Made by a program: the position numbers and the translations under genes. This document shows positions 4,229-29,935 of a DNA stretch of 44,501 nt, piece by piece. This stretch comes from a virus. The stretch lies in IMG/VR virus record IMGVR_UViG_3300020159_002519, positions 1 through 44,501 of that record; one strand, 5' to 3'. The notes under the pieces were generated by a model. It was not told the DNA's origin, ran no database searches, and saw only the letters and a list, made by a program, of their open reading frames with translations. Numbering within the stretch: the stretch's first letter is position 1; the number at the start of each line of letters is the position of its first letter.

Positions 4229-4301
4229 GACGTAGTAGCTCAATTGGTAGAGTATCTGCCTTCCAAGCAGATTGTTGCAGGTTCGAGCCCTGTCTACGTC
4301 A
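4229..4301 (+). tRNA. tRNA-Gly (anticodon UCC)
   Basis: Acceptor GACGTAG/CTACGTC, D stem GCTC/GAGT, anticodon stem TCTGC/GCAGA around CTTCCAA, T stem GCAGG/CCTGT around TTCGAGC. The anticodon TCC reads GGA and GGG. CCA is not encoded. It lies 3 nt after tRNA-Arg, so the two are surely co-transcribed. Confidence 0.95.
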
Positions 4302-4322
4302 CACTATTTCCACCACACGCAC

Positions 4323-4772: not shown

Positions 4773-4796
4773 CCCAGAGCACGACAGGTGGAAAAC

Positions 4797-4828
4797 AGAG
4801 ACCCGGAGCAATCCGGGTTTCTTCGTTT
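4797..4828. terminator. Bidirectional Rho-independent terminator between convergent units
   Basis: AGAGACCCGGA (4797-4807) pairs with TCCGGGTTTCT (4812-4822) across a GCAA tetraloop, with one G-T pair. The plus-strand tail continues TCGTTT. On the minus strand the hairpin is followed by GTTTTCC. It lies 25 nt after the plus-strand stop at 4772 and about 105 nt past the minus-strand stop at 4931, so it can end both units. Confidence 0.8.
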
Positions 4829-4837
4829 ACGGAAGGC

Positions 4838-4875
4838 GCCGGGTGAGTCCCGGCATTAAGTCCGTCAGCACGGAC
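4838..4875. other. Tandem hairpins in the convergent intergenic region
   Basis: Two compact hairpins follow the terminator: GCCGGG/CCCGGC with loop TGAGT (4838-4854) and GTCCGT/ACGGAC with loop CAGC (4860-4875), separated by ATTAA. Neither is followed by a T-run on the plus strand. They may act as 3'-end stabilisers or be part of a small structured RNA. I see nothing else in 4876-4930 except a doubtful 24-codon frame. Confidence 0.5.
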
Positions 4876-4930
4876 ACCCCACGCACACTAATGACAGGCC
4901 ACAACAACGAAGCCCGCCGACTCGCATGGT

Positions 4931-5968
4931 TTACTTGGCCTCTTGGTTGTCAAGGGTTGCCCTAGTCCTATCCCGAACCCAATCCCAAGCCAACCAGATG
5001 CCGAGCAAAGCGAAGCAACCCATCGTGCCGGCGACGATGTAGGTCGTGTAAGGGCTGTCTATTATGAAGGGGAATGCACCAATGGCGGCACCACAGGCTA
5101 TCAGCGAGACGCCTGCCTTCGCCCTGCCCAGAGCCGTGGCGAGCGCTCCTAGGACTGCCGTCGCGACGCCGGCCATGGTCCATAGGTTAGCCGACGCTTC
5201 CTTCTTCACACGATCCAGCTCTGCCGACAGCTCAGATATGCGAGCATCCCTAGCTGTGATGGCTGCCTTGCTTGCGACCACCTGCTTCTCAAGGCCAGCC
5301 CATTCGGCCTCCAAAGCTTTCTGCTTCTCGGCGGCCTTCTTGCGCTGAGCTTCATACTCAGCTGGAGAAGCTTTCTCTGAACGCTGACGCGCGAACGCGA
5401 CGTCATTCTCTGCGGCCTTGGGCAGATAGGAAGAAGCTATGGACAGCTCTGACTCCACGACGGCAGGTTTGCCGGCGGTGTTTGCCTCACGGGCCACAGT
5501 CACGGCAGCCGCAACGCGAGAGTCTATCACGTCGAGGTCCTTGCCGACCTTGTCGAGCTCGGAGGTCTTAGGGGCTGGAGCTACCTCAGGAAGCTTATCT
5601 GACTTGGTGGAGCACCCGGCAAGCAGCACGGCCAATAATACGACAGGCAGCCTCATCGACCTAACGACGCGGGTTATCAGGCCTGACGCGACGATTACGC
5701 AAGCTATGGTCAGGGCGAGGGCTAGATCCCCGCTTGTTTCCAGAGCTCTTTGAGCGTCGTTCAGGTTTCTTTCCAGCTGCTTGTCGTCGCTGGCTATTCC
5801 GCCCGGAGTCAGGAGGACCACCATGGCATCCCTCGATTGAAGGGACTCCAATACCGACTGCACGACATAGCTTGTGTAGGCCGCGCAGGATGCTGCCATA
5901 GATAGGATAATAGTCGTTGCCCATAAAAGGTTACTTTCGTCGTTTCTTTTGTTTGGTTCGTGTCGCAT
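4931..5968 (-). CDS. Multi-segment membrane protein with internal lipobox, spanin-like
   Basis: The ATG at 5968 has AAGGA 8 nt upstream and overlaps the holin gene by 38 nt. The 345-aa frame has membrane segments at about 14-39 and 82-103. A second start-like sequence at Met105 begins MRLPVVLLAVLLAGC, a lipoprotein signal with lipobox Cys119. A 130-residue Ala/Lys/Glu-rich coiled coil (about 135-258) is followed by three hydrophobic segments (262-281, 285-303, 309-329). From Met105 (coordinate 5656, 241 aa) the order outer-membrane lipid anchor, periplasmic coiled coil, inner-membrane segment is that of unimolecular spanins such as T1 gp11, which fuse inner and outer membranes at lysis. The full frame may be one protein or may contain an internal start. 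It is the last gene of the late unit, next to the holin. Spanin function is inferred. Confidence 0.65.
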   Translation of the reverse strand: MRHEPNKRNDESNLLWATTIILSMAASCAAYTSYVVQSVLESLQSRDAMVVLLTPGGIASDDKQLERNLNDAQRALETSGDLALALTIACVIVASGLITRVVRSMRLPVVLLAVLLAGCSTKSDKLPEVAPAPKTSELDKVGKDLDVIDSRVAAAVTVAREANTAGKPAVVESELSIASSYLPKAAENDVAFARQRSEKASPAEYEAQRKKAAEKQKALEAEWAGLEKQVVASKAAITARDARISELSAELDRVKKEASANLWTMAGVATAVLGALATALGRAKAGVSLIACGAAIGAFPFIIDSPYTTYIVAGTMGCFALLGIWLAWDWVRDRTRATLDNQEAK

Positions 5969-6275
5969 GTTGGAGTTCCTTTTCGCCGCGAGCGCGGACG
6001 TAGCGTATGAGGTATTCCATTAGCTCGGGAGCGACTGCTCCGGCGGCACCAATGGACGCGTAGAGAGCGCCCTTGCTGTGTATATAGTCCTGAGCCACTA
6101 GGCCTACGATGGCTGCGGTTATCATGGCTGCGGCCGCCCTGCGTATTATCCACGCGAGCGACAGCGGTTCAGGACTGAGGAGAATGCGAGCCCCCATGGC
6201 GGCACCGCCTAGGATGCTGGAGATGACCGCGTCCTTGATGAACACGGCATCTGCTTTGTCGGGTGGGTTATCCAT
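5931..6275 (-). CDS. Holin-like membrane protein, 114 aa
   Basis: The ATG at 6275 lies 8 nt inside the end of the giant gene and has a good Shine-Dalgarno sequence (AAGGGG, 7 nt spacing). Three hydrophobic segments are visible at about 12-33, 46-66 and 68-90, followed by a basic tail ending TKQKKRRK. Size, three spans and a charged C-terminus fit holins, which open the inner membrane to start lysis. The next gene has spanin-like features, so the two make a plausible lysis cassette at the end of the late unit. No endolysin is adjacent; the best candidate is the lysozyme-like gene at 1823-2254. Confidence 0.68.
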   Translation of the reverse strand: MDNPPDKADAVFIKDAVISSILGGAAMGARILLSPEPLSLAWIIRRAAAAMITAAIVGLVAQDYIHSKGALYASIGAAGAVAPELMEYLIRYVRARGEKELQHATRTKQKKRRK

Positions 6276-9200
6276 TCATGTCCCCTTCTAGTTGTTCTCG
6301 TTTCATAAGCTTTGATTGATTGGGAGCTTCGCGGACTTGGGCTTCATGCGTCGGCGCGCTCAAGCTGTCGGAGGGAGAAGGCTCCACCTTGCCGGGCTTT
6401 TTTCTCGGCTTGTTTCCGCCTTGCTTGGGAACGGAGACGCCTTTGCTCTCAATGTATTCCCTTATTGGCTTCCACCCTCCATGCTTTCGCTTGGAGTCTG
6501 TAAGGTTAGATTTGCGGACTAGATCAGAGTATGAACCTCCAGCCGCAAGGCCTTCGGCTATCTTGTCCATGCGTTTAGTCACTTCTTCTTGAGTCAGCTT
6601 GTTGGGGGGGTTGGAATTGTCCCTCTTGGAAAGCGAGCCCTCAGGAAGAGGTGCTATTCCTTGTGCCGCCCTATGAAGGACCATGGACGTCCGGGACACG
6701 CCAAGGTGCTTGGCGATTTCCAAGTCAGAGTGGCCTTGCTTCATGAGTTCAGTCGCAACTTCCCTGTCCCACAGGCGAGCCCGCTTGTCGCTCGGGTCAA
6801 CCTCGGCCGGCTTTTCGGCCATAGGCAGTTCGGGTAGGGTCTTCCTGTCGACCATGAGATTGTCGGCGTAGGTTATCGGGGTGCTATCCCTTAGATCCCT
6901 ATAGCGAGTATCCGCCACCTGCCGGGAAGACCTGCGGGATGCGTTCATGCCGGCCGCCTGAACCTTGTCGGCGAGCTGGGCTAGAGCCGATATGAGCTCA
7001 GGGCTCACCGGCTTTCCGGGCTCAGCCCTCTGGCCGCTGGCCATGAGCAGATTGACACCCGTGGATATCTTGTTCCTGAACGCAACCTCATGCTCCCTAG
7101 TCCTCATCTCCGGCGTGTGCACGAAGGTGGCGACGATAGGATTCCTTATCCTGAGTATGGTGTGGGCCATGGCCTCAGGGGTGGCTGTGCCCTTGCCCAT
7201 TACGAGCGCGTATACATAGGGGTTAACCAAGCCATACCTGAAGAACGACTGAGCTGAAGGCATAGCCTTCGGGTCGTCTGCCTGCTGGACGGGATTGCCA
7301 GAGAGGTCTCCGGCCAGAACTCCAAGCGCATCGATGCTTTCCCTGCTGACGATGGCTCTTCCGGCGTCAGGGTTGTCTGCGTGAGCACCGGCTCGCGTAA
7401 GAATGGACCTGATATCTTCCGCGCGAATATTAGGAGTTCCGCCGAACGGATCGGTCTGATTGAACCCCATCGGGCTGAGCTTCCCTTCGGCGGTAGCTGC
7501 TAAAATCGCGTCAGCCATAGGATCTCCCCTTCTGGCGGTGCCGGCCAGCTCAGCCATCGCGCCCATGCCGGCGGCGGTGTTGAGAGAGTATCCGGACGAA
7601 GCCTCCCTATAGCCGGGAAGGTCCGCAAGCGTGGTCATGTCGATGTATCCGCCAGCAGCGCCCCACTCTTTCATAAAGGCGTTGATAGCCCAATTGCCGC
7701 CCTTGTATTTGCTGGCCTGTAAATACTTCTCGCGGAATATGCGCATGCCCTGTTCGGAGCTAACGTCGACAGTCGCAAGTTCCCTGCCCGTCTTCGGGTC
7801 AAGGAGGACCATGTTACTGCCCCTGACCTCAAACTGAGGCCTTTCAAAGGCGTCGAGAGAATACAGGTTCTTGAATGCTTGGCCGGCGCCGACCATCATC
7901 ATGTCTACCTTCCATCCCGGCATGCCGTAGTTGGTGACATAACCCCATCCCGCGCTTCCATGTGCGTTCTGTGGGATCATGGTCATGCCCGACTCCTTCA
8001 TCGCGTTGGCGTTGAACTTAAAGGCGCTGTCGTTCCAATTTTCGTTAGGGGCTTTCTTGCCGCCGGTGAAAGAGGCTACTTTGGCCGAGCCCCTTGACTT
8101 TGCTTCCTTAGACCTGCTATCGATATGCCTGACAAGCGTCCTCATGTAGTCGCCGCCAAGCTCAAAGGTGGTCGCATGCCTGCCGTAGGACTTGAGTAGC
8201 TCGCCACGCATGCCTTCCGGCATCCTCTCAAAGAGGTCCTTGAACACCAAGGCTATGTGCGTTCCGATGCTTCCGGACACGCCATTATGATCCAGCGGAA
8301 CGCCGAGCATCATAGGCGCGACTTCGCCGTCCGACATGTTGTTCAGCCTTTCGATGAACGCGGCGTGAGGTCCGCTTGGTCCGTTTATATCACCGCCGCC
8401 CAGCTTTTCGTGGGCATACATCAAGCCCTGTAAGATGGTATAGCTTTCGTCGATCCCAAGCGCCGGCCATACGAACCTATTGGCCTTGCCGGCAGCCAAG
8501 AACAACGTGGGGGTCTTGTTCAGGCCGTGTCCGCGCTCAAGCTGGAACGTGGCGTCATACATGCCTATGGCCCGCATTCCATGGTTCATCGAATCGATGA
8601 CAGCCATGGACAAGTGCCCGGACTTGTATCCGTTGATATCGACGAACGGAAGGGCATTAGGCATGACCGCTTCACCACCACGTCTTGCGCCCTCGAATGA
8701 ACCCGTCTCCGGGACGCCCTTGGACATGGTCGCTATGTCCAAGTTGAGCCTGTCGATCTCCGGCTGGATGTTCTGCTTACTTATCATGGCCTTGAACAGC
8801 TCGCCGATGGATCGCGCGAAGCTGCCGGCCTGAGTTCCGGAATACCTGTCGTAGTCGGAGAATATGAAGTGACCCAGCGCGCGCCCTTCCTTCTTAGCCC
8901 TGAGTATCTCAAGGAATATCCTGTTCGCCATGGTCAGGCCAGACGCTCCATCGGCCCTCATGGTGATGTAGGTGCGCTGAGGGCCTTGGTCAGCCGGTCC
9001 GGGCCCACGCTCTATGAAGACGGCCTTATTAGTGACGTCTCCGGCTGAGTCTAGCTGCCAAGCAAGGTCGTTGATGGCTGACTCGTATAAGTGCCTGCTC
9101 AACCCTAGCAACGGAAGCAATTCTTCCAGAGGGATGGCTTCTATGTTGGCCAGCTGCTCGGCGGTCATGCCGTCGCTTTGGATCACCCTATTGGCAAAGT

Positions 9201-12200
9201 CATCAAATCCGAGGTCCACTCCATTGGAGAACCCGTTCGCGAACGTGGCAGTAGGCTTAGGCTCGGCAGCTTGCTGGAGCATGACCTCAAGGGAAGTCAT
9301 GATAGTCTTTCCATTGAAGCTCTTGGTGTCGGCAAACTTGGCGCGAATCGTCTCAAGGGCGCGACGGGCTACGTTCTCGTAGTCTATCTTCATTCCCGTC
9401 TGCACGGACTGAGACGCCTCTAGGACGAACTTCTCATCCAGCAACATGATGGCCGCAAGCTGGGTAGCCAGAAGGCCCTTGCTGTCCGAACCGGACCTTT
9501 CGATGTGCTCAAGGTGTGAGTGGAGTCCCTTAAGCAGCTCCTTGAGGTCTCCCTCAGGGGCGTTCTCAAGGGAAGGCATGACCCTCGACAGGTAATTGTC
9601 GCTCATCATGTCCACGTTAGCCTTGTGTATGAGCTGCTGGATGCTCTGGTAGGAGTTTACGGCAGCCCTGCGCGGGTCGTTGTTTATCAGCTCGGTGATA
9701 TTGCCTATGTTCATGCCGCGACCCGAAAACAGTTCATGGACTTCCGCGGCGCTCCTCATATTGGCAAGCATCCTCTGTTTCACCATTCTTTGCGCCACGG
9801 ACGTAAGGTTTGAGCCGCCGTTGCTCATCATCACCAACTTGATCAGCTCGACGTCGGGCTCGGTGACAGGCATCCTGTCAGGCAGATCAAAGCCGGCCTG
9901 AGCTTTTATCGAGCGCTTCAGGCTGTCGGGGGTGTTCACGAATCGTCCCGTTCCCTTGAAGAAGCCCGGAGCCGAAGCCGTGATGAACATCTTGTTCATC
10001 AAGTCTAGGTTGTTGAGCTGAAGCCTGATGGTCAGGTCCGTGAATGACATGTCGCCCGTGACCTTGAACAGGTTTTCGAGCATGTGTTTGGTCGCGTTAT
10101 CCCTGATAGACTCGAGCTGCCCGACCCTTTCCTTGAGCTCCTTAATCTTGGGGACGTTGGCCATCATGGTAGACTCGCCTGCCGTGGCAGGCAGGAAGGC
10201 GTCGACGTCATCTATCATGCCCGTGCCGGCAAACTTCTGGAACAAGTCAGACTGAAACTCCTCCATCATCATGACAGGGAATCCGAGCCTCTCCAACCTG
10301 ACTGCATTAGGAAGGCCGGCCATGTCCGGGCCTATCAGCAGGGCATCCGGCTTGTCGAATATCGGAAGAGACAGACCGGCCAAAGAGAGGTTGAGAGAAT
10401 ACCTGTAATGGCCTATCTCATACTCTCCCTTGTAAGGTTCGACAGTCCTGCTCGGGAGGTAGTCGCCGAAGTGAGCTCCGATGCCAGCTTTGAGCTCGGA
10501 CATTGCAGCTCTCACAGTCGCAACACGCTCTGCCGCGGCGAGAAGCGCGCGGGCCGCTTTGTGCTTTTCGTTGTCGCCGGCGTTTAGCGCGGCGGCGGCG
10601 GCGGCCTGAAGGTCCTCGATGTATTGGTTTATCTCATCTTGCTTGGCCGCGTCGTAGAACTGAACGACAGTATTTGTTCCCATCTGCTGCCTTCCGGTGC
10701 TGTAGCTATCCCATCCTTCGGACCTATTGCCAAGCACCTGACCGGTGGACTCAGCGTAAGCTCCTCCGAAGCCATACACCTTAGAAGATGCCGCCCTAGA
10801 CACGTTGCTCATGGACACCAGACCAAGTTCGGGCTTCGTCGCGCCGATCCAGCCATGCGTCATAAGCCTAAGGGGAGCGTATATTTCAGGGGCGACGCCT
10901 TCGAGGGCCGCGAGCATCTCTTGGTCTTTGAGAAGCTTGGCGACCTCGTCGTTATACTTTTGCCTGACAGATTCTATGTCTTGGAAGTCTATGTCGGCGG
11001 CAAGCCTCGCGATAGAGCTGCTGGTAGAGGTTTCAACGCCCTCTTCCCCGAGCCTAGACCGGAGCTTTTCATCCGCGAGCCTGAGTATGGTCGAGACGCT
11101 GGCTCCTTCCAAGAATCCGTTATCCATGCCCAAACGCTCTGCCGTAGCCGTGGCGGACTGCCTTATCACGTCAAGGGCGGCGGTAAGCTTGGTCACAGTA
11201 GCCGCGTCTCCCTTGGCGTTGGCTTCCGAGAGCTTTATCTCAAGAGCTTCTATGGGGCCGCGAACGGCGTCTATGCTCATCTTCATGTTCGCGACAGTCT
11301 GAATGGCCGCGTTCTGGATGTATGGTATGTGCCATCCGGACTTTTGTATGAACGCCGGCAGGTTGGAGCCGGGGTTCTGAGGTATGCCCATGGTCATGGC
11401 TTCGATGGCCCTCTGCTGGGGGCTGAACCTGAAATCGTTCTTCACGAGATTAGGCATCATCGCCGCGAAGAACTCAGCGACGTCCATCCTCGTAAGAGGG
11501 GTGTCCATCGAGGTGGAGAACAGCTGGCCAAGTCCTGACTGACGAAGCTCTTCACCGGACACTCCGTTGATCTTCATGAAGGCGAACCAATCGGCGCCGT
11601 TCATGGATTCCTTATATCGCTTGTGCTGGTCGACGCCCCTAGCTATGGCGTTCATCGCCCTAGACTTCAGGGATATCGGGCCCTTGGGCAGGCCGAAGTT
11701 AAGCTTAGACCTGACTAATGCTTCGAGCTCCGTGACCTTAGCGCCGGCACCACTTACCATGAGCAGGGTGTCGTTCGCCTTGAAGCGGATGTGTTTCCTA
11801 GAATCGAGGGCCTTCGCGACCCTTTGCGCGGTCTTCTGGTCCATGACCATGTCGAGGTCTCCCACGACAAAGCCATTGGCCGATTCCCCTAGCCCGGCCT
11901 CGGTGAATACTCCCTGCCTCCTAGGAGTCAGTTCGCCTATGAAGGCGTCCTTTGACTTGGAAAGGTCCGACCTGTCCACGACTTCGAGGTCTCCGTCTGC
12001 GAGGGCTTTTACCATTTCGGCGCCACTCATCATCTTGGACATTCGGTTGGCGTATTGCTCGGCTTCGGCTGCCGACTTGAACGCGACAGCGGTCTTGGAT
12101 ATGAGAAGACCTCCCTCTGGAGTGATCGAAACAGGCGAGTCGAACTGAACGACATGCGCCCTGAAGTTGGCGTCACCCTTGGGGCCCGTGCGCTTCCATA

Positions 12201-15200
12201 CCTTGATGCCATGCATGGCCTTGGCGTCCCAAGAATACTTGAGCAGGTCTTCACGTCCCGGGAAAAGGGTGGCTATGGCCATGCCCGTGTCTCCATCTAG
12301 AGACAGCTTACGTTCTGCGTCCGGAAGGAAATAGCCCTGTTCTCCGCCCATTATCCTAGCAACCAAGAGCTCAATGTCGTCTATCAGGTGCGGGTCAGCC
12401 GCCTGACGGGCCTTGGTGAGTTCATTGACTAGAACCTCCGGCAACGTGCCAACGTCTATGACGTTATTTCCAGCCCCCCTAAGCTTGTGTTTCAGGGCGG
12501 TGGAATAACTACCGGTAGCTTCTCCGTAATTTCCGAAGAGCTGATTATTGACCACGCTCAATACAGTTCCCTCGAACCTTCCCTTGGAGCCGAGTATTCC
12601 GTAATTAGGAGTTATCGCCGGGTCCAGATGCGCGGTGAGAAGCATCTGCTTCACAGTCTCCATGCTCGCGTTCGCAGGTATCCTTATCGTGATGTAACCT
12701 GCCGACTGACCAAACGAAAGCCTTTGCGCGGCGCCGACATGCCGGGCTAGGTCGGGCTCTTGTCCGATTAGCATCATGGCGCCCCTGACTGATGCTGCGT
12801 TTTCCTTCAGGTCGGTCGGGGTCACGGCGTCAGTCCTAGACCTATGAATCCTTCCGCCCAGAATCTCGTCAGCCCTCATGTAAGCGGAGGCCATCGAAGA
12901 CGAGTTGGGGTCATAGGCATCCAGCATGAAGTGTCCATAGCTGGACATTATCTGATGCAGGCCTGCCTGAACCTGAGCTTTGGCCGGTATGAACGCCTTG
13001 CTGTTCGGATCATATCCGACGCCCTCGGCTATCGAGAACCCGAAGCCGACGCGCCTTCCAAACGCCCTTCCGTCCATTTTGTATCCGAGGTGGTCTCCGG
13101 ATATGTTCACCAATATGTCTCCATTGGCGGCCCTAGACCAAGAGAATCCACGGCTAGGCGTGGACTCAGCGAAGCCCGTCAGGGGGCCGAACATCCTGTC
13201 CACTAAAGCGTTGTCGCTTCCTGCCGTGATGTAGTTGCCCTTCTGGGCTTCACCCATCTTGTATTGGATGCCCTTGTCGATGGCCCTTATGCCTGTTGCA
13301 TGCCAATCCTTGACGGCATCCCTTACTGTGTCCGCACCCCTGATGCCCATCAGGTGCGCCGCGGAGGGCGCCCTATAGGTCAGGGACATGCTCGCCGGCT
13401 GGATCTCAATGACGTCCGAGCCGGCCGCCTGAAGCCTTTTGGCTATCGTCTTTCTTAGGTGGGTCCTGACCAAGTCCTTCGTCAGCTTCCTGTCCTTGCC
13501 CGGGTTAAAGGTAGTCTGGATGCCTTTGCCGCGCGCCTTAACTCCGGTCATGTATTCAGCGGAGGACGGGTGCTGAAGCAGGGCTGCGGCTATTCCTCCA
13601 AGCTCAGGAGGAATTACCTCTCCCGTGGTAAACTTAGAGCCCGGTCCATATATGGTGGCGCCGGTCGCCGGCTGGAATCCGGAGCTTCCTTCGGAGTATA
13701 TCTCATTTGATACGACTTCATCATACGGAAGGCTTCGGCTGGAAGCGTCTGCGTTATCCGAATAGGCGGCGAAGTTCACCTTGTATCCGTCGTCCGTGTA
13801 GATGGCCGAGGGGGAGTGCTTGACGCCTTCTGTCGCAGAAAGCTCGAGCAACAGCCTAAGGAGCATCTCAGTCCCGGCTCCGTAGTCCGAATGACCTAAG
13901 ATGTCTCCATGAATCTCCTGCAAGAACTTCACCATGGACTGAGCTTCACGCTGGTCGGGCGCGCGATTTATGAACGACCCGTCTTGGGCATTCCGCATCT
14001 CGGCCGTCACTCGATGGGTCAAGCTATCCGCGGAAGAGGCGTTGAAGTGGATCGCCTCATAAGCCTCGGACCTGCCCTTGGTCATGGCAAGCTGCTGGAT
14101 GTAAGACTCCCTTATCTGGTTTATCTCGGCCTTGTTGAACCTCTTGGCTAGCTCCGGTGCTATCGACGAATCAAAGACATACAACCCGGCGACCCTAGCC
14201 ATACCTTGCCAATCGGCGTCGGCATATCTGACGCCAATATATTGAGATAGCCTTCGTATGCCTATGCCGGTAGAACCGCTGAACAGCTCTGATCCGCGCC
14301 GGACAAACTCGTCGGGCCTTATTTGGTCAGGCCTGATCGAACGAAGCTTAGAGAACTCGCCTACGAGCTCAAGTATGGGGGCTTTTGCCTCATAGAGCGA
14401 GTCATGCTCAGATATCCTCTTCAAGAGGGGCACCATCGATCCAATGAGCAACCCAGCGGACAGGTTGTTCTTGTATTGAGGATGGGACTCCGGGTCGAAA
14501 CCCTTCAGCGCCTCGCCAAGCGCCCTAGTAGCCGGGTCGCTGGACATGGCCATGTTCTCGGCCGCGTAGTAAAGGCCAAGGCCTCCGCCAGCCATGTGCA
14601 TCATACTGCGCATGGTCCGGTTGTGCTTATACGACTGAGAGTGTTCCCCGCCCACCTTTCGCATCACCCTTTCGATTGTGTCGGCGAAATGGATCGACGG
14701 CATGTCTCGCGAAATCTTGGCGATGATGGGGCCAAGGCGGGCAAGAGCAGATCCTATCGGCTCTCCCGGCCTGTCTCCGAAGAGGTTCGCCGAGAGATTA
14801 TAATCCATCGCGGCATACTTGCCTGAAGCAAACGCCGGAGAGCTTGAGCTGGTGCTCTCAAGTCCGGACAGGATTGCAACATCCTTAGCGGTAGCCGTGT
14901 TCGTAAGGGCTTCGTGCGCGGAGGTTATGACGAGTCGCCTGTCGCCCGTGCCCGGAATGTAAGACCTGAGCGTGGTGGCATGAGGCATCAGCCTGAATGC
15001 GTAAGCGTCGGTCTGGTTGTCGTAATCCCCATTGAAGCCCTCGGTGATAAGGGTTCCGAACGGATTCATTACGCCCGGGTCTTCCTCTATGGCCCTCATT
15101 AGGTCAAGGAGAGCCATGGCCTTTTGCCTTTGCTCGCCGATGTGGGCCTGAGCAAGCTCAAGCCCGACGTGGTCGTCGGCGACCAAGCGCGCAAGCCTCT

Positions 15201-18200: not shown

Positions 18201-21200
18201 TGATGACATTCGCCAGCTTCTCATGCTCGGCGAAATACTTCTTGAGCATCTTGACCACATCAGAGGTGACGCTGTTGTCTCCCTCGAACGGACCCATGAT
18301 GCCTATGTTCTGATCAGACCCGAGGGCCTTGGCTGCGCCCACATACATCGGAGTCAGGTATCCTTCCGGATTCATGGCTTCCGTGAACTTGGGGTCATCT
18401 AGTCCCGGCGCGGAAGCATACCTGCCTACGGAAGCGTTGAAGGCTGCGTCCCTCCAATCCTCAGCGTTCTGTATGGAATGCTGTATCTCATGGAGGACAA
18501 CATCCCTGAAGTTGGATTCATAGTCAGGGAACTGCCCGTGCCCTTCGTAAGCCATCGACTCACCGGCGCGGGGAGCTTTCGAGGTCATGTCGATGTTGGC
18601 GGCATACTCCTGCCTCAGGAAGTTATCCACGCCGATGACGAAGCCCTTGGAGCCGGTCGGGTCAAACGCGCAGCTCATGCCTTCGATGCAAGTCACATCA
18701 AGCTTTGCTAACTCTGGGTAGAGGGAGAAGAGCTCGTCATGGACTATGATATCCTTGAGCTTCAGGCCCCTCCTGTTGAAATTGTCGATCAGGGAGTCGA
18801 GGTCCGCCCTGTTCTGCTGGCCAATCCTAGACAAGACGGCGCCCTCTATGGCGAGCGCGGCGTCAGGAAGACCTTCGACAAGCGGGCTGACTAGTCCGGC
18901 CGTGAAGGTAGCCGTGTTTAGAGACGCGCGCGCGTCGGATATCTCGAAATAGGTATGCTCCCTGCCGGAGGCATCGCGCAGTTTCCCGACCAGACCAAGG
19001 GAGGTGAGTATGTCCTTCCTCTCCTTTGACAGGTAGGCTTCAGCCCTCCTGCCGACAAGCATGTATGCGGTGCTGGTCTCGATGTTGCCACCGGCAGTCC
19101 GGGACTTGAGCTCAACGTGCCCCTCCTTCCTGTATGTCTTTATCATCGCCCCGTAAGCCCCAAGCTGGGACTTAGACGCGCCATTGGCCATCATCCCGGT
19201 GGACTTGAGCTCGTTGCTCTGAAGCACCGCGTCAGACATTGCGGCGAGGTTCGACAGGACCATAGGTCCGTTGGGATAGCCTTCAGCAATGGACTCGGCT
19301 ATTTTGAAGCGAGCCATTATCATTCGTTCAGCAAACATGGCCTGCTCATGTCCGACCCCGTTATCTGTGAGCAGCTTCGTGACGTCGGCCATCAGCCTTG
19401 ACTCAGCTTCACCTCTTCCCGCCGGGTCTATCACGGAAAGCTCGGTCGCCATTTTCTGCATGATACTATCGATGAACCCCTTTGATCCTTGGCCAAGGTT
19501 GGAATGAACCTGCATCCAAGTGACCAAATCTTTTTCAGACCTGTTTATCTGCCTAGAGAAATCGAAGTTACCCGAGGCATCCATCGAGCCCATGGCTATG
19601 GCCAAAGCGGCGGGACTGACGGCGGACTCAGAAAGGTCCATGGCCGTGCCGCGGGCCCTGAGGTTGTCGGCGCCAAGAGAGTCCGGCGCCATCGTCTGAA
19701 GGCCAAGTTTACCATCCCTACTGCTGGACCCTTGGACAAGCGAAGAGCCATTATCTATAGCCATGCTTATCGAGCCCGTCGCGCTCCTTGTAGTGACGAC
19801 GACAGGGGCAAGGTCAGACCCGATCACCGAATTGGCTTTGGCCGCAGCCCTGTATCTGGAAGGGTTGGCGGTGTTGACGGACGACTGAACATATAGGTCG
19901 ACCATGTTATCGCCCTTAGATCCGGCGGTAATGTAGGCCCTAGCCGCAGGGAGGTCGTAAACAGACGCCGGCTTCCTCACAATCTGCCTGACGCCAGAGA
20001 TGGAACCGACGCCTCCACCCCTTCGGTATTCCTTGGCGGACTCAAACACGCTCCTATTCATGTGTTCGAGGGGGCCTCCCAATCCGAGATCCCTTTCCCA
20101 TGCCGGCTTGATGAGGTGGAAGAAGGGGCTTTCGCTCGAAGTAAGGCGGGCTATCGTTCCATACAGTATGGCCGCATCCTGAAGCGCGGACTTATCTCCT
20201 TCGGAGTGCCTCTTGATGGCGTCCTCTATTCCTTCGTAAATGGATTTATGCGTGAGGACATTGTCCACATCCGGGTCGTCTACCTTGGACATTTGCATCC
20301 AAGCAAAGCCCTTCTTCTTTCCAGATTTGCCGCGCTGAAGCCTGCCATCAGTTCCGAAGGACCCGATGACAGTCTTTTCATAGACGCCACCGGCGTCAGC
20401 CACACGATTGGCCGCGTCATGCCATGCGTCGAGGAACGATTGAGCCTTTGCGCTCGCCTTGACCTTGCGCCTGCTCGGGTCGCTTAGAATTACGTCTGAG
20501 ACGGCGTCGCCGAGCCCCGGGATAAGTTCGCTCAGGTTATTGATCCAATTGGTCCTGACAGCAAACGGGTCCCAAGGTCCAAGTATTCCGATGGCAGGGT
20601 CATTTGAAGCGCTCGCCTTGGCGTTCTCCAAGAACTTTTTGTGATGCGCCTCTATTTCCCTTACTATCCCAATCCTGTCTACGTCATACTTCTGAGTGCC
20701 CTTGAACGTCTTACTCAGATCGACCATGGCGTCTTGGAACATGGCAACCTTGTCCGGATTGTCGTGCCTATTGAACCTCCACATCCTCATGCCGACAGCG
20801 TGTTCGTTCTGTTCCGTTCCGTAGATCCTGTGGGCCGTCCTGAACGCGCTTTCAAAGTCTATCTTATCAGCCCTTATGCTTTCGCCGTCACTTCCATAGA
20901 CTGTGGCGAGTATGGTCCTAGCGATGGTTATCTCGGCTTCACTTACGTTAACTCCGCTTTCATACGCTTGAACCTTCTTCTTGGCCCAATCAAGAGTCCC
21001 GAAGGTAGTCCTTATGGACAAAACGGAGCTTCGGAAGGTCGTATTCATCGTTTCGTGTCCTTCCCTGTTCAGCGCGGAGGATGATCCCTTCTTCGCTCCT
21101 GCGGCCAGATTACGAAGCATGTCATTCTGGCCGGATTTGACGAAGGCATCGACCTTCTGTTCGTGGTAATTGGTAGGCTCGCCCAAGGCGGTCACTTCAC

Positions 21201-24200
21201 TCCTGTCCGCCATAAGTCGGGAAAGCTCCATTGCTCCCTTCGCCGACTCCATGTTGCCTGACGACGGGAAAGGTATCTCACCCTTCCTTACGGACGTGGA
21301 CAAAACTAACGCGGCGGCAGCTCTGGATGAAACGACGTCGGCCGCGAACTCCGGGCCATACTTCATCTGGATATCCTTCAGGTAGACAGGATTGAAAGAG
21401 AGCGCGACATTGACCAATCCTCCGCCTATGGCCGTGCTTGTCGTGAACCTGTCAGCCATCAGCAACGGGTCTTCCGACGGAACGTCCGGGTCGTCTATCG
21501 ACATGCGCTTGGTCCCGAACGCCTCGCTATACCTTATGAAAGACTTGGATTGAGCATTATGGGTAGTTCCGTCCGGCCTTACTATCTCGACTAGGCCGAC
21601 CCCCACCATTTCGGCTTCTTCAAAAACTCCCGGCTTCAACTCTCCTACCCTGCCGAAGTGCCCATACTTCGACCCAAGTTTTGCATGCTGGGCGATATGG
21701 TCGGCCGGAGCTAATCCGCTTGCGGAAACTCCCGACCTCAGCCTTTTCTGCAAAGCTTCGACCCTGCCCGATACCATGAACAGAGACGTCAGCTCTTCTG
21801 GCCCATTGGCGTCAGGTCCATGCGGGTTGTTGTCGTAGACTGCGTTATCAGGGATGGTGTCCGCCTCGTCGATTTCACCGGCATCCTTGGCCGCCTTCTT
21901 CATGGCCTTGGCCGCGGTCTTGAATACGCCGACCTTGATGCCGAACGGGTCGAACAGAGCGTAACCCTTCCTGCTCTCGAATATCTCGAAGCCCTGCCTG
22001 TTGCGGAACATCATTCCGCCATTAGCCAGAGGGCTTGCCGCAAATCCGGTAAGCTGGAAGTTCTTCGTCACCCCCTCGTAAGCTACATTGTGGATGTAGG
22101 GGAAGAATGGGACGCGAGAATAAGGATTCCACGCGGTAGGCTGAACCTGAATGTCAGCCATGGTGTCGAACCGCATCGTGAAGAACGGGCGGTTAGGGTC
22201 ATCCGCGCCACCCTTGTATCCGTTAGCCGGCTCGTTGATCCATGACGAGTCCTTGGTCTTACGACCTCCGAAGGCCTCATACATGATATCGCGCACACGC
22301 TCGGCCTCAGAGCCGAACATGGGCCTGAAAAGCTCAGCGGTCGGGACGCGGGCGCCATTAAGGCCGGACTGATTTATGACGTAGGAGTTGAAGACCTTGA
22401 CGAACTCCTCGAAGTTTCCGCTGAACAGCTGCTGAACGTCCGCGCGCTTGAATATTTTCTGAAGGCGGCGGTTCTCGGCGGCCACATCAAGCGAATGGAT
22501 AAGGACTCCGCCCTTCGGGCTGCGAAGCGGGTTGCCTTGAGCGTCGTGCGTCTTGACGTAAATCTCAACGCTGAGAGGGACGAAGGACCTGTAGGTGACA
22601 GGAACATCCTTGCCGGTGAGCCTGATGACGCTAGCGCCCTTCCTGACCTGCATGGTATGGGCGAGCAGGGTGGCGTTGAGCACATTATGGGTCATCGCTC
22701 CCTGTCTGTTACGCTGGACGATGTTAATCATGCCCATCATGGCGTCCCATTCCTGCTTAGTGAAAGCTCCGGACTGCTTTATGGCATCGAGGGCATCCGC
22801 GCTTATGGACTCCAGCTTTATCTTGGTAGCCCCGTCCTGATCGACTTCTACGAGAGGGCGAACATCTTCCGGGACGCTGCCAGCCGCACCAAGTATCTTC
22901 TGCGCCTGCTGGGTAGAGATATCGTCGAGCTCGTTCTTCGGCTTGAGTCGCATGCCTCCGCCGGCAACGGAATTGAAAAGGTGCGTCTTCCCGGCTGACT
23001 TGGCCAAAGCCTCCTGACGGAACTGATCCATCGTGGAGGTAAGCACCTCTCCCTTCGAGTAGGCCTGCCGCATGACCATGTCTATCCAAGCATCCATGCC
23101 CGGGGTGCGGAGCATCTTTCCGTCATCAAACAGGAAGGAATCAAACACGGGGACAGGGGCGCCCGTCGCGTCCTTCTGGTCGCTAAACAACCTAGGCGTT
23201 CCGTCCGGATTGGTGAGCCTAGCCTTAATCTCAACGCCGGCCATCTCAAGGTCGGCCATGATGAGGCTGTTCTTTCTGGCAGCCCTATTCTCGGCCCACG
23301 CGCGAAGCATGTTCCTAGCGGCCGGGTCCTTCGTGTATTGATCGACAGGAAGGACGTTGGTCAGGCCTCCATGGTAATAAGCAAAAGCTTCTTCCATCGC
23401 TGTGGATATGGAAGCCACAAGCTTCACCACTTCCGGGTCTTGCAGTTTAAGCTGATTTTTCGAGTATAAGTCCCTAAAAGTCTCTACGGCGTTGGCGTAG
23501 GTCATGCCAACTTGCCTTGCGGTAGCCTCATCTATCCCGTTGTAATCGTTCCAAATCTTAAGGGCCGTGTATGATTGGACCATGGCGTTCAACGCCTTGT
23601 CAGGCATGATGCCCATGTCCTTGGTGGCGCCCAACAGGTTTAGCAGGTAATTAGGACGGAATATCTTGTATGACACTTCGCTTTGGGAAGCAGGGTCATA
23701 CCCCCTGATGTATTCCATGTCCCCGTTCGCCTCAGCGACAGACCTCAGGAGAAGGTGGGCTACTTCATGCCTTCCGGTCGTAGGCCTATAGCGCTCGCTG
23801 TTGAGAACCAGAACCTTTTTACTGCCCCCGAGGGCGTCTTTAAAGTCGATCATCGCACCGGCAGCCTGAGAGACTTGGGCGACATTCGCCTGTATGTCGC
23901 TCGGCTTCATCTTCATGTCGACGAGTATCTGGGCCAGCTCGTTCGGGTTCTTGGCGACGTCTCCAAAGTAGAAGTTCACGTTGCCTACGCCCATGAGTCC
24001 GCCTTCGTGCGCTATCAGCGTCTGAAGGTGAGCCATCTCTATGGCTGAAGTCCTAAGGTCTCCGTAGCCCTGTATGTGCTCGCTGAACCTCTTGGCGCTT
24101 TCGTAGCCGGTCGGTCCAAGAACTCGCCTGAACGCCTCGACTCCATATGACTTGAAGTTGTCGACGACGAGCTGGTCTTGGTGCTGGAAGCGAGTGTATG

Positions 24201-25629
24201 CCCCCATGTGTCGGACAGTTCCGGACAATCCACCCCAAGCCACGCCCATGCCGACGCCAGCTCCAGCGCCTTCTTCGCGAGAATTGACCCAACCGATGCC
24301 AGCTCCGATGACGCCGTCTCGGAACATGGCCTTAAGGGCGGACCCAGACATGCTGGTGGCCCATCCGACAGTCGCGTTGACTCCTACCGCAAGAAGCTGG
24401 GCCTCGCGTGACATTACGTCTGCCCCGCGGGCGGTCCCAGACGAAAGACGTTCAAGCGTGGTCATGCCTATTGCGTCAGGCTTAACCATCGCCTTGCCGA
24501 GCGCGCGGTCGACTATGTCTGCTCCTGCGGTCTGGGCCAGCTCACCAAGAGCTTCAAGTCCGATGCTACGCATGAAGCCCATCGCGGGATGCCTCATGGT
24601 GGTTCCGACTACTTCCGCGCCCATTTCTACTGCGGCGGCGGTCGTCGCGTTACGGACGGCGTTGCCGGCGTAGTCACCAGCCAGCTGCATGGCAGCAGCC
24701 TCAGCTCCATAGATCGCTTTAAAGGGGGCCCTGATAATGGCACCAGCCGCTTCGAGCGTCTTGCCGGCCGCGACGTCCATTCCCTTGCCGATGATGTTAG
24801 TTCCAAACCCGCCAAGTCGTTCGACGGCTCGGGCGGCCCAAGTCGCCCTAGCACTTTTGGCCGAAGCATTCGCAGCCAGCTTGAGCGCCGTGGCCGGCGT
24901 GGATGCTCCCGCTGAAAAGAACCATTCGGGTATATCCAGAACGGCGTAAGAAAGCGCCGTCGCAAACTTCGGGTCTACGAGACCCTCATAGGTGGATTTC
25001 CATCCGTCAGGCAGGTAGTCCCCGAGGATAGTTCCCTTGCCTTCCATGTGCTCGTAGGACCTGTTGTTGAAATCCCGGGCTTCATGGAACTGACGAATCT
25101 GGGAGTCCGTGTCGCCGTCATCTTTGCCGGCCAGACGCATGAAGTAGCTCTTAAGTTTGAATCCCCAGCTTCCCGGGTCTTCCGAGTGAGCAAAGATTCC
25201 CCACATGTCCATGGCGCCCTTGGCGGCGCCCTCGGCCGTGCTAGCTGCAAACTTGGCGGGGTTAAGCGGAGCGTCGGCGAGGCCACCAAGCTCCTCGATC
25301 ATCTGATTGACGGCGTTTTCTGCGGATCCAATGAAGTCGGTCTTCTTGGTGTCCATGTAGTCCATCATCATCTTGAAGGACTTACGGCCAACCTCGTCGT
25401 TAGAGAACCGCGCCTTGCGGTTCATCTGCATGTATTCGTAGATATCCTTACCCGTAAGAAGCGACGGGTCAGCTTGGGCGGCGACGTCTGGCGTCGCTTC
25501 CTCAAAATCAAAAGCGGGGGCAGGCCTTACCTGCATCCCTCCGGCTTGGAGCCCCGCGATGATATCGCGCTTTATCTGGGCGTCCCTGTCTTCCGGCTTT
25601 TCAGGTTGGGTAGATTCGATGGGGTCCAT
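6268..25629 (-). CDS. Giant large-polyvalent-type protein, 6453 aa
   Basis: One uninterrupted frame of 19,362 nt. The start codon at 25629 overlaps the upstream stop (TAATG); no close Shine-Dalgarno site is visible. Residues 1-100 are polar. Roughly 200-480 is Ala/Gly-rich and partly hydrophobic. An HEVAHLLL zinc-protease motif is at 621-628. A second, HEIQHSIQN at 2380-2388, is preceded by HDELFSLYPEL at 2297; this combination resembles polyvalent-protein domain LPD23. Short related segments GVFKTAAKAMKKA (about 1236) and AFKSAAEAEQYA (about 4516) suggest recurring small modules. A DWFAFMKINGVSGEEL segment near 4680 and EEFQSD at 5123-5128 match the EIQSD-type module of phage large polyvalent proteins. 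Residues 6296-6322 form a helix-turn-helix, followed by a Lys/Pro-rich tail. I see no Walker ATPase, DNA methylase or RNA polymerase motif. Such proteins are often packaged and ejected with phage DNA; here that is inferred from position after the internal-protein genes and before lysis. Confidence 0.9.
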   Translation of the reverse strand: MDPIESTQPEKPEDRDAQIKRDIIAGLQAGGMQVRPAPAFDFEEATPDVAAQADPSLLTGKDIYEYMQMNRKARFSNDEVGRKSFKMMMDYMDTKKTDFIGSAENAVNQMIEELGGLADAPLNPAKFAASTAEGAAKGAMDMWGIFAHSEDPGSWGFKLKSYFMRLAGKDDGDTDSQIRQFHEARDFNNRSYEHMEGKGTILGDYLPDGWKSTYEGLVDPKFATALSYAVLDIPEWFFSAGASTPATALKLAANASAKSARATWAARAVERLGGFGTNIIGKGMDVAAGKTLEAAGAIIRAPFKAIYGAEAAAMQLAGDYAGNAVRNATTAAAVEMGAEVVGTTMRHPAMGFMRSIGLEALGELAQTAGADIVDRALGKAMVKPDAIGMTTLERLSSGTARGADVMSREAQLLAVGVNATVGWATSMSGSALKAMFRDGVIGAGIGWVNSREEGAGAGVGMGVAWGGLSGTVRHMGAYTRFQHQDQLVVDNFKSYGVEAFRRVLGPTGYESAKRFSEHIQGYGDLRTSAIEMAHLQTLIAHEGGLMGVGNVNFYFGDVAKNPNELAQILVDMKMKPSDIQANVAQVSQAAGAMIDFKDALGGSKKVLVLNSERYRPTTGRHEVAHLLLRSVAEANGDMEYIRGYDPASQSEVSYKIFRPNYLLNLLGATKDMGIMPDKALNAMVQSYTALKIWNDYNGIDEATARQVGMTYANAVETFRDLYSKNQLKLQDPEVVKLVASISTAMEEAFAYYHGGLTNVLPVDQYTKDPAARNMLRAWAENRAARKNSLIMADLEMAGVEIKARLTNPDGTPRLFSDQKDATGAPVPVFDSFLFDDGKMLRTPGMDAWIDMVMRQAYSKGEVLTSTMDQFRQEALAKSAGKTHLFNSVAGGGMRLKPKNELDDISTQQAQKILGAAGSVPEDVRPLVEVDQDGATKIKLESISADALDAIKQSGAFTKQEWDAMMGMINIVQRNRQGAMTHNVLNATLLAHTMQVRKGASVIRLTGKDVPVTYRSFVPLSVEIYVKTHDAQGNPLRSPKGGVLIHSLDVAAENRRLQKIFKRADVQQLFSGNFEEFVKVFNSYVINQSGLNGARVPTAELFRPMFGSEAERVRDIMYEAFGGRKTKDSSWINEPANGYKGGADDPNRPFFTMRFDTMADIQVQPTAWNPYSRVPFFPYIHNVAYEGVTKNFQLTGFAASPLANGGMMFRNRQGFEIFESRKGYALFDPFGIKVGVFKTAAKAMKKAAKDAGEIDEADTIPDNAVYDNNPHGPDANGPEELTSLFMVSGRVEALQKRLRSGVSASGLAPADHIAQHAKLGSKYGHFGRVGELKPGVFEEAEMVGVGLVEIVRPDGTTHNAQSKSFIRYSEAFGTKRMSIDDPDVPSEDPLLMADRFTTSTAIGGGLVNVALSFNPVYLKDIQMKYGPEFAADVVSSRAAAALVLSTSVRKGEIPFPSSGNMESAKGAMELSRLMADRSEVTALGEPTNYHEQKVDAFVKSGQNDMLRNLAAGAKKGSSSALNREGHETMNTTFRSSVLSIRTTFGTLDWAKKKVQAYESGVNVSEAEITIARTILATVYGSDGESIRADKIDFESAFRTAHRIYGTEQNEHAVGMRMWRFNRHDNPDKVAMFQDAMVDLSKTFKGTQKYDVDRIGIVREIEAHHKKFLENAKASASNDPAIGILGPWDPFAVRTNWINNLSELIPGLGDAVSDVILSDPSRRKVKASAKAQSFLDAWHDAANRVADAGGVYEKTVIGSFGTDGRLQRGKSGKKKGFAWMQMSKVDDPDVDNVLTHKSIYEGIEDAIKRHSEGDKSALQDAAILYGTIARLTSSESPFFHLIKPAWERDLGLGGPLEHMNRSVFESAKEYRRGGGVGSISGVRQIVRKPASVYDLPAARAYITAGSKGDNMVDLYVQSSVNTANPSRYRAAAKANSVIGSDLAPVVVTTRSATGSISMAIDNGSSLVQGSSSRDGKLGLQTMAPDSLGADNLRARGTAMDLSESAVSPAALAIAMGSMDASGNFDFSRQINRSEKDLVTWMQVHSNLGQGSKGFIDSIMQKMATELSVIDPAGRGEAESRLMADVTKLLTDNGVGHEQAMFAERMIMARFKIAESIAEGYPNGPMVLSNLAAMSDAVLQSNELKSTGMMANGASKSQLGAYGAMIKTYRKEGHVELKSRTAGGNIETSTAYMLVGRRAEAYLSKERKDILTSLGLVGKLRDASGREHTYFEISDARASLNTATFTAGLVSPLVEGLPDAALAIEGAVLSRIGQQNRADLDSLIDNFNRRGLKLKDIIVHDELFSLYPELAKLDVTCIEGMSCAFDPTGSKGFVIGVDNFLRQEYAANIDMTSKAPRAGESMAYEGHGQFPDYESNFRDVVLHEIQHSIQNAEDWRDAAFNASVGRYASAPGLDDPKFTEAMNPEGYLTPMYVGAAKALGSDQNIGIMGPFEGDNSVTSDVVKMLKKYFAEHEKLANVITRDTGAAGIREAIDYASTDDVMRAINAIVEAPMAKVLMADEIPSIVRHSERFETIMDLMELALSKRASEFDAEGMTSIKERIRISRESNRKIKSTAIASMERVKQGSDPLMEASALSGVVQQFLPHVTITDPSMSVLARDIVGNIDYVEHMQDFATAPLRRALNKLAFAAGNNASTLSAQQANLRIAEVVHGLMKNLYMQDPMEVMARETEMRTSMTIEEMAKAPRKTFAEVVKLPEALRVGLFTREMVGAEFGMNISPGTFNDFKNDTLLMIGGSKGSSKLSSEVLTKDSRVFELGLRHLARASLLTHHIKPDRILRRVNELAYESRGWKIDENGRAVYVISEGTMRLNRPGAEASEVAYTMQNMLESTIGMPRRDNPLTPGAREADNTYAEQLKADKAVQLGQLTGIPDMDINTPPDLGLLSGIARGHEKVTSSSFLRDTSTNGDNNVLFAAGLTKDGVSVTIEDLAEAIGATLDVESQMTMGSPALDAVMGRYFPDLIEADRIVDALRIAGVDEGDISSSKAQKIAEAFAGKKVTKAEIADLMAIMHDVPFFDSVGAATNRDLLRQAAFTGDADAAQKIRAAYFESGDYGVAMRATVHGLINNSAGFSSEIPMKGVFDSLTKSTYGSGVLRLQSVVTTVIKEQWNILEGLYGLTGSKSVADELVRRLRSRRPNLAEVFPDRNDHHILFNKETRIFPGSVNPDNLANEALNRFRNRVFKHLMALTPVAERVIQLMKNEPERSRVIDALEHIYGKVIDDSIKEATRLTMSAEEGLESSRTVQYAATVGSAASLSNRTYGIGNKEQSVIRKVTERTMGGYQSSRMSGVVPFFGVFGGAAHAMREFARIDSSYVGMAGIAMQGDYSFGPTSGRQRNLISMQTEGDTFFRRFIRERDMGNAVEDYDMETSLDIIADAGDLAAASLLAERISNNLTGDRKDTVKAYSEHITNALRSHRRLKQVASGILSAIDAQAGYMGIGNVLTPSRLISSPTDTYLSDTSRKRLARLVADDHVGLELAQAHIGEQRQKAMALLDLMRAIEEDPGVMNPFGTLITEGFNGDYDNQTDAYAFRLMPHATTLRSYIPGTGDRRLVITSAHEALTNTATAKDVAILSGLESTSSSSPAFASGKYAAMDYNLSANLFGDRPGEPIGSALARLGPIIAKISRDMPSIHFADTIERVMRKVGGEHSQSYKHNRTMRSMMHMAGGGLGLYYAAENMAMSSDPATRALGEALKGFDPESHPQYKNNLSAGLLIGSMVPLLKRISEHDSLYEAKAPILELVGEFSKLRSIRPDQIRPDEFVRRGSELFSGSTGIGIRRLSQYIGVRYADADWQGMARVAGLYVFDSSIAPELAKRFNKAEINQIRESYIQQLAMTKGRSEAYEAIHFNASSADSLTHRVTAEMRNAQDGSFINRAPDQREAQSMVKFLQEIHGDILGHSDYGAGTEMLLRLLLELSATEGVKHSPSAIYTDDGYKVNFAAYSDNADASSRSLPYDEVVSNEIYSEGSSGFQPATGATIYGPGSKFTTGEVIPPELGGIAAALLQHPSSAEYMTGVKARGKGIQTTFNPGKDRKLTKDLVRTHLRKTIAKRLQAAGSDVIEIQPASMSLTYRAPSAAHLMGIRGADTVRDAVKDWHATGIRAIDKGIQYKMGEAQKGNYITAGSDNALVDRMFGPLTGFAESTPSRGFSWSRAANGDILVNISGDHLGYKMDGRAFGRRVGFGFSIAEGVGYDPNSKAFIPAKAQVQAGLHQIMSSYGHFMLDAYDPNSSSMASAYMRADEILGGRIHRSRTDAVTPTDLKENAASVRGAMMLIGQEPDLARHVGAAQRLSFGQSAGYITIRIPANASMETVKQMLLTAHLDPAITPNYGILGSKGRFEGTVLSVVNNQLFGNYGEATGSYSTALKHKLRGAGNNVIDVGTLPEVLVNELTKARQAADPHLIDDIELLVARIMGGEQGYFLPDAERKLSLDGDTGMAIATLFPGREDLLKYSWDAKAMHGIKVWKRTGPKGDANFRAHVVQFDSPVSITPEGGLLISKTAVAFKSAAEAEQYANRMSKMMSGAEMVKALADGDLEVVDRSDLSKSKDAFIGELTPRRQGVFTEAGLGESANGFVVGDLDMVMDQKTAQRVAKALDSRKHIRFKANDTLLMVSGAGAKVTELEALVRSKLNFGLPKGPISLKSRAMNAIARGVDQHKRYKESMNGADWFAFMKINGVSGEELRQSGLGQLFSTSMDTPLTRMDVAEFFAAMMPNLVKNDFRFSPQQRAIEAMTMGIPQNPGSNLPAFIQKSGWHIPYIQNAAIQTVANMKMSIDAVRGPIEALEIKLSEANAKGDAATVTKLTAALDVIRQSATATAERLGMDNGFLEGASVSTILRLADEKLRSRLGEEGVETSTSSSIARLAADIDFQDIESVRQKYNDEVAKLLKDQEMLAALEGVAPEIYAPLRLMTHGWIGATKPELGLVSMSNVSRAASSKVYGFGGAYAESTGQVLGNRSEGWDSYSTGRQQMGTNTVVQFYDAAKQDEINQYIEDLQAAAAAALNAGDNEKHKAARALLAAAERVATVRAAMSELKAGIGAHFGDYLPSRTVEPYKGEYEIGHYRYSLNLSLAGLSLPIFDKPDALLIGPDMAGLPNAVRLERLGFPVMMMEEFQSDLFQKFAGTGMIDDVDAFLPATAGESTMMANVPKIKELKERVGQLESIRDNATKHMLENLFKVTGDMSFTDLTIRLQLNNLDLMNKMFITASAPGFFKGTGRFVNTPDSLKRSIKAQAGFDLPDRMPVTEPDVELIKLVMMSNGGSNLTSVAQRMVKQRMLANMRSAAEVHELFSGRGMNIGNITELINNDPRRAAVNSYQSIQQLIHKANVDMMSDNYLSRVMPSLENAPEGDLKELLKGLHSHLEHIERSGSDSKGLLATQLAAIMLLDEKFVLEASQSVQTGMKIDYENVARRALETIRAKFADTKSFNGKTIMTSLEVMLQQAAEPKPTATFANGFSNGVDLGFDDFANRVIQSDGMTAEQLANIEAIPLEELLPLLGLSRHLYESAINDLAWQLDSAGDVTNKAVFIERGPGPADQGPQRTYITMRADGASGLTMANRIFLEILRAKKEGRALGHFIFSDYDRYSGTQAGSFARSIGELFKAMISKQNIQPEIDRLNLDIATMSKGVPETGSFEGARRGGEAVMPNALPFVDINGYKSGHLSMAVIDSMNHGMRAIGMYDATFQLERGHGLNKTPTLFLAAGKANRFVWPALGIDESYTILQGLMYAHEKLGGGDINGPSGPHAAFIERLNNMSDGEVAPMMLGVPLDHNGVSGSIGTHIALVFKDLFERMPEGMRGELLKSYGRHATTFELGGDYMRTLVRHIDSRSKEAKSRGSAKVASFTGGKKAPNENWNDSAFKFNANAMKESGMTMIPQNAHGSAGWGYVTNYGMPGWKVDMMMVGAGQAFKNLYSLDAFERPQFEVRGSNMVLLDPKTGRELATVDVSSEQGMRIFREKYLQASKYKGGNWAINAFMKEWGAAGGYIDMTTLADLPGYREASSGYSLNTAAGMGAMAELAGTARRGDPMADAILAATAEGKLSPMGFNQTDPFGGTPNIRAEDIRSILTRAGAHADNPDAGRAIVSRESIDALGVLAGDLSGNPVQQADDPKAMPSAQSFFRYGLVNPYVYALVMGKGTATPEAMAHTILRIRNPIVATFVHTPEMRTREHEVAFRNKISTGVNLLMASGQRAEPGKPVSPELISALAQLADKVQAAGMNASRRSSRQVADTRYRDLRDSTPITYADNLMVDRKTLPELPMAEKPAEVDPSDKRARLWDREVATELMKQGHSDLEIAKHLGVSRTSMVLHRAAQGIAPLPEGSLSKRDNSNPPNKLTQEEVTKRMDKIAEGLAAGGSYSDLVRKSNLTDSKRKHGGWKPIREYIESKGVSVPKQGGNKPRKKPGKVEPSPSDSLSAPTHEAQVREAPNQSKLMKREQLEGDMNG

Positions 25630-26534: not shown

Positions 26535-26536
26535 TG

Positions 26537-29934: not shown

Positions 29935-29935
29935 G

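Follow-up and report, generated by a model that had tools for sequence, protein, structure and literature searches.

The locus analysed here raises the question of what kind of protein can take up 19,362 of the 44,501 nt (43.5%) of a phage contig. The window, that is the whole stretch of DNA that was analysed, is the complete IMG/VR record IMGVR_UViG_3300020159_002519 (44,501 nt), and its metagenomic source contig is not closed. A previous reading made from the sequence alone (the sequence-only reading) had proposed a large polyvalent-type protein that is delivered at infection, and our analysis supported this as the best reading, with delivery itself remaining an inference.

An intact giant gene and its relatives

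The ORF list and the translation bore out the claim of one intact 19.4-kb frame of 6453 residues filling about 43% of the window: there are 6,453 codons and a single stop, which is terminal. The computed pI of the product is 6.3.

6268..25629, minus strand: giant protein gene (6,453 aa, ~701 kDa, 2 Cys)

In the closest relative (G001), a 123-base terminal overlap closes a 48.6-kb unit of which the giant takes 39.9%, so the giant occupies about 40% of the full genome, and the window record is probably a nearly complete genome, about 4 kb short. Within the phage group, 36-40% of the genome is spent on this protein. It is longer than N4 gp50 (3,500 aa) and H66 gp60 (3,787 aa), and no data were found to support a status as the longest of all phage proteins.

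Relatives were located by running patterns from the window protein on viral contigs, and 29 giants were gathered from independent IMG/VR contigs, 21 of them complete (5,649-6,459 aa), whose amino-acid identity to the window giant is 66% at most and falls to about 20% or less. None of the 29 was interrupted, and some were truncated by contig ends only, which meant that the frame is not an artefact. Across the 500-codon windows that allowed a calculation, dN/dS was 0.05-0.23 throughout in four close pairs (a single window, inside the hypervariable cassette described below, was saturated). The gene is thus under strong purifying selection, as the sequence-only reading had supposed from its retention. 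A scan with the terminase gave 131 matching stretches, and the best 80 contigs were listed. Ten longer contigs were tested: all eight with terminase identity of at least 77% carried giant head or C-terminal sequence, while the two with terminase identity of 60-62% had no match to the giant. Every sufficiently long contig of the same group that was tested had an intact or contig-cut giant without decay, so the possibility that related phages carry only degraded copies was not borne out.

Two 3,000-aa pieces (jointly covering residues 1-6000), the head and the EExQSD domain were used as tblastn queries against 50,697 named phages without a match, and scans of bacterial genomes gave no relative. 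Pfam, PHROGs, NCBIfam, PADLOC and PDB sequence profiles gave nothing above threshold on pieces of the giant, including the Pfam LPD/MPTase models, and neither did Pfam and PDB profiles on six relatives. No ATPase, methylase, RNAP, kinase or Fic motif was conserved in the giant, and the earlier statement that it has no ATPase, methylase or polymerase motif holds by both motif and profile. The giant belongs to none of the families in the libraries used; we class it by kind as a polyvalent/ejected protein. Matches to a coiled coil (geminin) and to ribosomal proteins (E near 0.04-0.5) were judged to be chance, and an RNAP-C-like HDS at residue 3742 was rejected as not conserved.

Position in a late structural module

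The gene order of the window is terminase, portal, scaffold, capsid, tail genes, four proteins of 259-568 aa, giant and holin, so the giant was indeed placed after a run of probable internal proteins (25629-30009) and before the holin (5931-6275), as the sequence-only reading had it. The genes that matter here are the following.

40634..42274, minus strand: large terminase, the marker defining the phage group
35528..36877, minus strand: major capsid protein (phrog_1328, LUZ24/phiM5-like)
29230..30009, minus strand: probable internal/ejection protein (259 aa, 0 Cys)
28249..29226, minus strand: probable internal/ejection protein (325 aa, 0 Cys)
26537..28243, minus strand: probable internal/ejection protein (568 aa, 0 Cys)
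25629..26561, minus strand: probable internal/ejection protein (310 aa, 1 Cys)
5931..6275, minus strand: holin (phrog_6384, E 3.6e-4)

The start of the giant abuts the end of the preceding gene (25629..26561), and the start of the holin overlaps the end of the giant by 8 nt. Location in a late structural module beside tail and internal genes, as is characteristic of ejection proteins, is therefore met. The closest named relative of the terminase is that of Phage C75C1 (34%), and the window phage is probably an uncultured short-tailed phage.

The window also carries four tRNA genes (2712-4302, plus strand; Gly-gcc twice, Arg-cct and Gly-tcc) in a phage genome of ~48 kb, and an IstB/DnaC-like helicase loader and an ERF recombinase (776-1486 and 3301-4146, plus strand). 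The window proteins that were scanned included no recognisable DNA or RNA polymerase, which suggests that the phage depends on the host replisome.

Cysteine depletion

The giant contains 2 Cys, when 58 would be expected from the rate in twelve other window proteins (P 8e-23); translating the same strand in its other frames would yield about 170. The rate across the 29 giants was 0.058%, and the four proteins preceding the giant have 1 Cys in 1,462 residues. As controls, N4 gp50, gp51 and gp52 and T7 gp15 and gp16 have 0 Cys and T7 gp14 has 1; the majority of the remaining head and tail proteins of these phages contain some. The giant thus shares the Cys-free composition of N4 gp50-52 and T7 gp15/16, which is a correlate of ejection and no formal definition. 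Because the capsid-type proteins N4 MCP, N4 gp57 and T7 gp9 are exceptions that are also depleted, we regard Cys depletion as a suggestive but not specific sign of ejection. The absence of Cys from N4-like vRNAPs and its rationale in tail passage have been published (PMC3915230), and the argument is therefore a known idea applied here.

A constant head, a hypervariable cassette and two zincin signatures

Conservation among the giants divided the protein into the parts below.

21880..25341, minus strand: constant N-terminal head, residues ~97-1250 (conservation, sister homology, fold match)
24190..24345, minus strand: Gly/Ala-rich segment, residues ~429-480, GAGIGWVNSREEGAGAGVGMGVAWGGL (function inferred)
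23230..24012, minus strand: zincin domain 1, residues ~540-800 (HEVAH 621-625, predicted third ligand E747)
18991..21783, minus strand: hypervariable cassette, residues ~1283-2213 (block replacement between close relatives)
18430..19062, minus strand: zincin domain 2, residues ~2190-2400 (HEIQH 2380-2384; conserved H2297, E2229, D2232)
11500..12432, minus strand: highly conserved undescribed domain, residues ~4400-4710 (motif GYFLPDxER ... WD)
9910..10662, minus strand: undescribed domain with invariant EExQSD (EEFQSD, 5123-5128) (conservation)
7600..8952, minus strand: conserved undescribed C-terminal domain, residues ~5560-6010 (conservation)

The head was the best conserved part of the giant. 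The sequence-only reading had found nothing recognisable in about residues 630-2290; its boundary could not be kept, since the part before 630 and residues 630-1250 form one conserved head. The head profile aligned with the first ~1,200 aa of the giants of two sister phages, G037 and G038 (P 98.9%, E 3e-17, 955 columns). A structure model of the head, which is weak (mean pLDDT 53), matched predicted proteins of uncultured phages (E 1e-23 to 1e-10) that are annotated as large polyvalent, LPD, ART-PolyVal-like or GNAT-containing. Because the TM-scores were low, this predicted likeness is a match of sequence plus local structure and no proof of the same overall fold. The head model had no match in PDB, and no homology was detected between the head and the N terminus of H66 gp60. 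The Gly/Ala-rich segment is possibly a membrane-interacting hairpin, a function that we infer.

In zincin 1, H621, E622, H625 and E747 were invariant in 21 of 21 complete copies, so the definition of a zincin as HExxH plus a conserved third ligand is met, and in one clade the HExxH is replaced by the HExxxH form. The model of this domain has strands followed by the HExxH helix (pLDDT ~70-80), without a match in PDB. At the position of HEVAH the sister giants read EETFH (G037) and EELFH (G038); judging from these EExxH residues in place of HExxH, the inferred catalysis of zincin 1 would not be required everywhere.

Directly behind the head we found a hypervariable cassette. DNA identity between G009 and G010 was 0.94 outside and 0.60 inside residues 1283-2213 (LLR 936), and between G013 and G014 it was 0.90 outside and 0.75 inside residues 1314-2163 (LLR 154), which meant that two independent close pairs gave similar bounds. 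G000 and G001 had their identity minimum over the same stretch without a clean segment, and the other two close pairs showed no such block. Synonymous sites inside the cassette were saturated or strongly raised, as expected from replacement by a diverged allele, and the alleles of G009 and G010 were still alignable (about 48-64% amino-acid identity). From these comparisons the cassette appears to be swapped as a block, but local fast evolution instead of exchange is not fully excluded.

Behind the cassette lies zincin 2, with an 'HxELYxxYP' motif. H2297, H2380, E2381 and H2384 were invariant in all 21 complete copies, which provides the HExxH and H2297 in 21/21; the third ligand was not identified. 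The invariance of the zincin residues persists though overall identity drops to about 20% or less. The domain was homologous to part of H66 gp60 (P 97%, E 1e-11 by hhalign) and also to a phage protein that stands alone, in the contig L044 (P 98%, E 7e-14). The claim that residues 630-2290 and 2400-4660 are unrecognisable thus fails for 2200-2400, which falls partly inside them and is a recognisable zincin domain. The L044 protein (4410-5510, 366 aa) is located between terminase and portal genes and has a zincin-2-like, metallopeptidase-like domain, with weak Pfam matches to DUF6782/M78.

Farther downstream, in addition to the three domains listed, residues 4161-4210 form a further undescribed conserved block. 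Besides its two different zincin signatures the giant therefore has at least three other conserved blocks, and activities beyond zincin could not be identified. The presence of a catalogued polyvalent domain, such as a zincin MPTase, was met through the homology of zincin 2 to gp60, the zincin 1 signature and the fold match of the head. A structure model of residues 4032-5230 was too weak to interpret (mean pLDDT 50). The C-terminal tail was variable and poorly conserved in other clades, and at its extreme end there was a weak HTH match (window 6688-6822, minus strand, E 0.011).

Comparison with known systems

A positional counterpart was gp60 of Pseudomonas phage H66, which, with its F116 counterpart (Hollowayvirus), is named 'PLxRFG domain-containing protein' and has 3,787 aa. 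The H66 order is Cys-free gp57-59, gp60 (1 Cys), holin, endolysin and Rz, and mass spectrometry is said to have verified gp60 in virions (by a note in the H66 record only). Common to gp60 and the giant are position, Cys depletion, the zincin 2 domain (HPQLFAAYPDL ... LHELQHAIQ in gp60), two HExxH motifs and Gly/Ala-rich N-terminal segments. However, gp60 is 2,700 aa shorter and shares only a single ~200-aa domain with the giant, which lacks both the PLxRFG motif and the methylase-like NPPF region of gp60.

Polyvalent proteins with MPTase/LPD/ART domains (PMC5512222) resemble the giant in being very long and multi-domain, with zincin MPTases between domains, in their phage structural locus and in their predicted co-injection. 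Zincin MPTases, including the HEXXXH form, are common in such phage proteins, and processing has been proposed for them (Iyer et al. 2017, PMC5512222); a zincin-type domain has also been reported for N4 gp50 (PMC5512222). The difference is that no catalogued effector domain was recognised in the giant, whose other domains are undescribed. Like the N4 virion RNA polymerase gp50 with gp51/gp52, the giant is a very large member of what is probably a Cys-free ejection block, but it lacks a polymerase motif and any family or PDB profile match to a polymerase, and the single-subunit RNAP motifs that would define an N4-like vRNAP were not met. T7 gp14-16 are likewise Cys-poor internal core proteins beside tail genes, but gp16 (1,318 aa) is about five-fold smaller, and no lysozyme/transglycosylase domain was found in the giant.

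The sister phages G037 and G038 (TerL 60-62%) have Cys-free giants of 3,599 and 3,467 aa in the same slot. Their C-terminal 2,200 aa are unrelated to the second half of the window giant (P 0.2%) and gave no match to Pfam (G037, L243-L245; G038, L246-L248). In the same slot Phage C75C1 (L009) has Cys-free proteins of about 2,694 and 1,343 aa, plus a third of 375 aa. The larger two, which are annotated as hypothetical, are likely ejection proteins; no homology of the giant to them was detected.

Discussion

We consider it likely, though by no means settled, that the giant is an ejected internal virion protein of the polyvalent kind, because of its position, its Cys depletion, the domain and gene order shared with gp60, the zincins and the fold match of the head. 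The frame, the family and its conservation, the zincin signatures, the split into head and cargo, the replacement of the cassette and the Cys depletion are demonstrated; location in the virion, ejection, proteolysis and a function as effector rest on inference, and no virion proteomics for this phage group was found in the material searched. That the giant holds several undescribed activities, as the sequence-only reading suggested, is plausible but unproven.

Other readings were weighed against the same observations. The giant could be a purely mechanical ejection protein, an enlarged T7 gp16 / N4 gp50 framework that forms a channel for DNA entry, with structural length, no effector cargo and zincins that are remnants or assembly trimmers. 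The head is the most conserved part, downstream conservation is spread along the whole chain, no effector domain was found and the zincin 1 signature is lost in the sister giants, all of which would suit such a framework. But neither zincin signature varies in the 21 complete copies of the clade. The sequence behind the head has no relation to that of the sister giants, and one block is exchanged among close relatives, which fits cargo better than a channel, and we think this reading rather unlikely. A virion RNA polymerase that works like N4 gp50 and has diverged past recognition would explain the same kind of slot, the size class and the strongly conserved undescribed blocks (4400-4710, 4161-4210); with no conserved single-subunit or double-barrel RNAP motif and no profile or PDB match, there is very little to recommend it.

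A large intracellular protein that stays out of the virion, such as an early factor for counter-defence or replication, is similarly improbable: direct virion data are absent and the weak HTH signal at the extreme C terminus would be compatible with it, but the late structural/lysis operon, the holin overlap, the extreme Cys depletion and the positional counterpart in H66 that is verified in virions all speak against it. As for an artefact of assembly or annotation, or a decaying gene, which the unusual length and the unclosed metagenomic contig might have invited, the 29 independent contigs, the 21 complete homologous frames and the dN/dS of 0.05-0.23 have already refuted it.

If the giant is an ejected polyvalent protein, it would be made late, together with the head and tail genes, and a few copies would be packaged inside the capsid of the short-tailed phage. 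It would then be threaded through the tail into the cell, probably one domain after another, either along with the DNA or before it; for N4 gp50, exit through the tail as a chain of domains has been proposed (PMC12633501). The head (~97-1250), with the Gly/Ala-rich segment and zincin 1, may serve packaging, ejection and membrane passage, and the remaining ~5,200 residues (the cassette, zincin 2 and the chain of conserved undescribed domains) would be the cargo. Cleavage of the polypeptide, either inside the particle or once the protein is in the cell, would most likely be the work of the two zincins, and it would free the cassette and the downstream domains for early action on host targets or defences. 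All steps after synthesis from the late operon are unproven inference, and no known effector domain was recognised in the giant. As a more specific hypothesis, which we hold only tentatively and would sooner doubt than assert, the giant could be a self-processing delivery polyprotein, with a constant ejection head and a chain of cargo that is cut by two zincins after tail passage, and with a ~900-residue effector cassette between the head and the second protease, a cassette reshuffled between phages in step with changing hosts or defences.

For phage biology, this means that an uncultured lineage that occurs in many metagenomes devotes more than a third of its ~48-kb genome to one protein, nearly twice as long as the N4 virion RNA polymerase and with domains unknown to all libraries searched. 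Cys depletion offers a simple pointer, from the genome only, to candidate ejected proteins in unknown phages. The head, the two zincins and the exchanged cassette give the vague idea of a 'polyvalent protein' testable parts, so that one can ask which segment drives ejection, whether the giant is cleaved and what role the cassette plays inside the cell.
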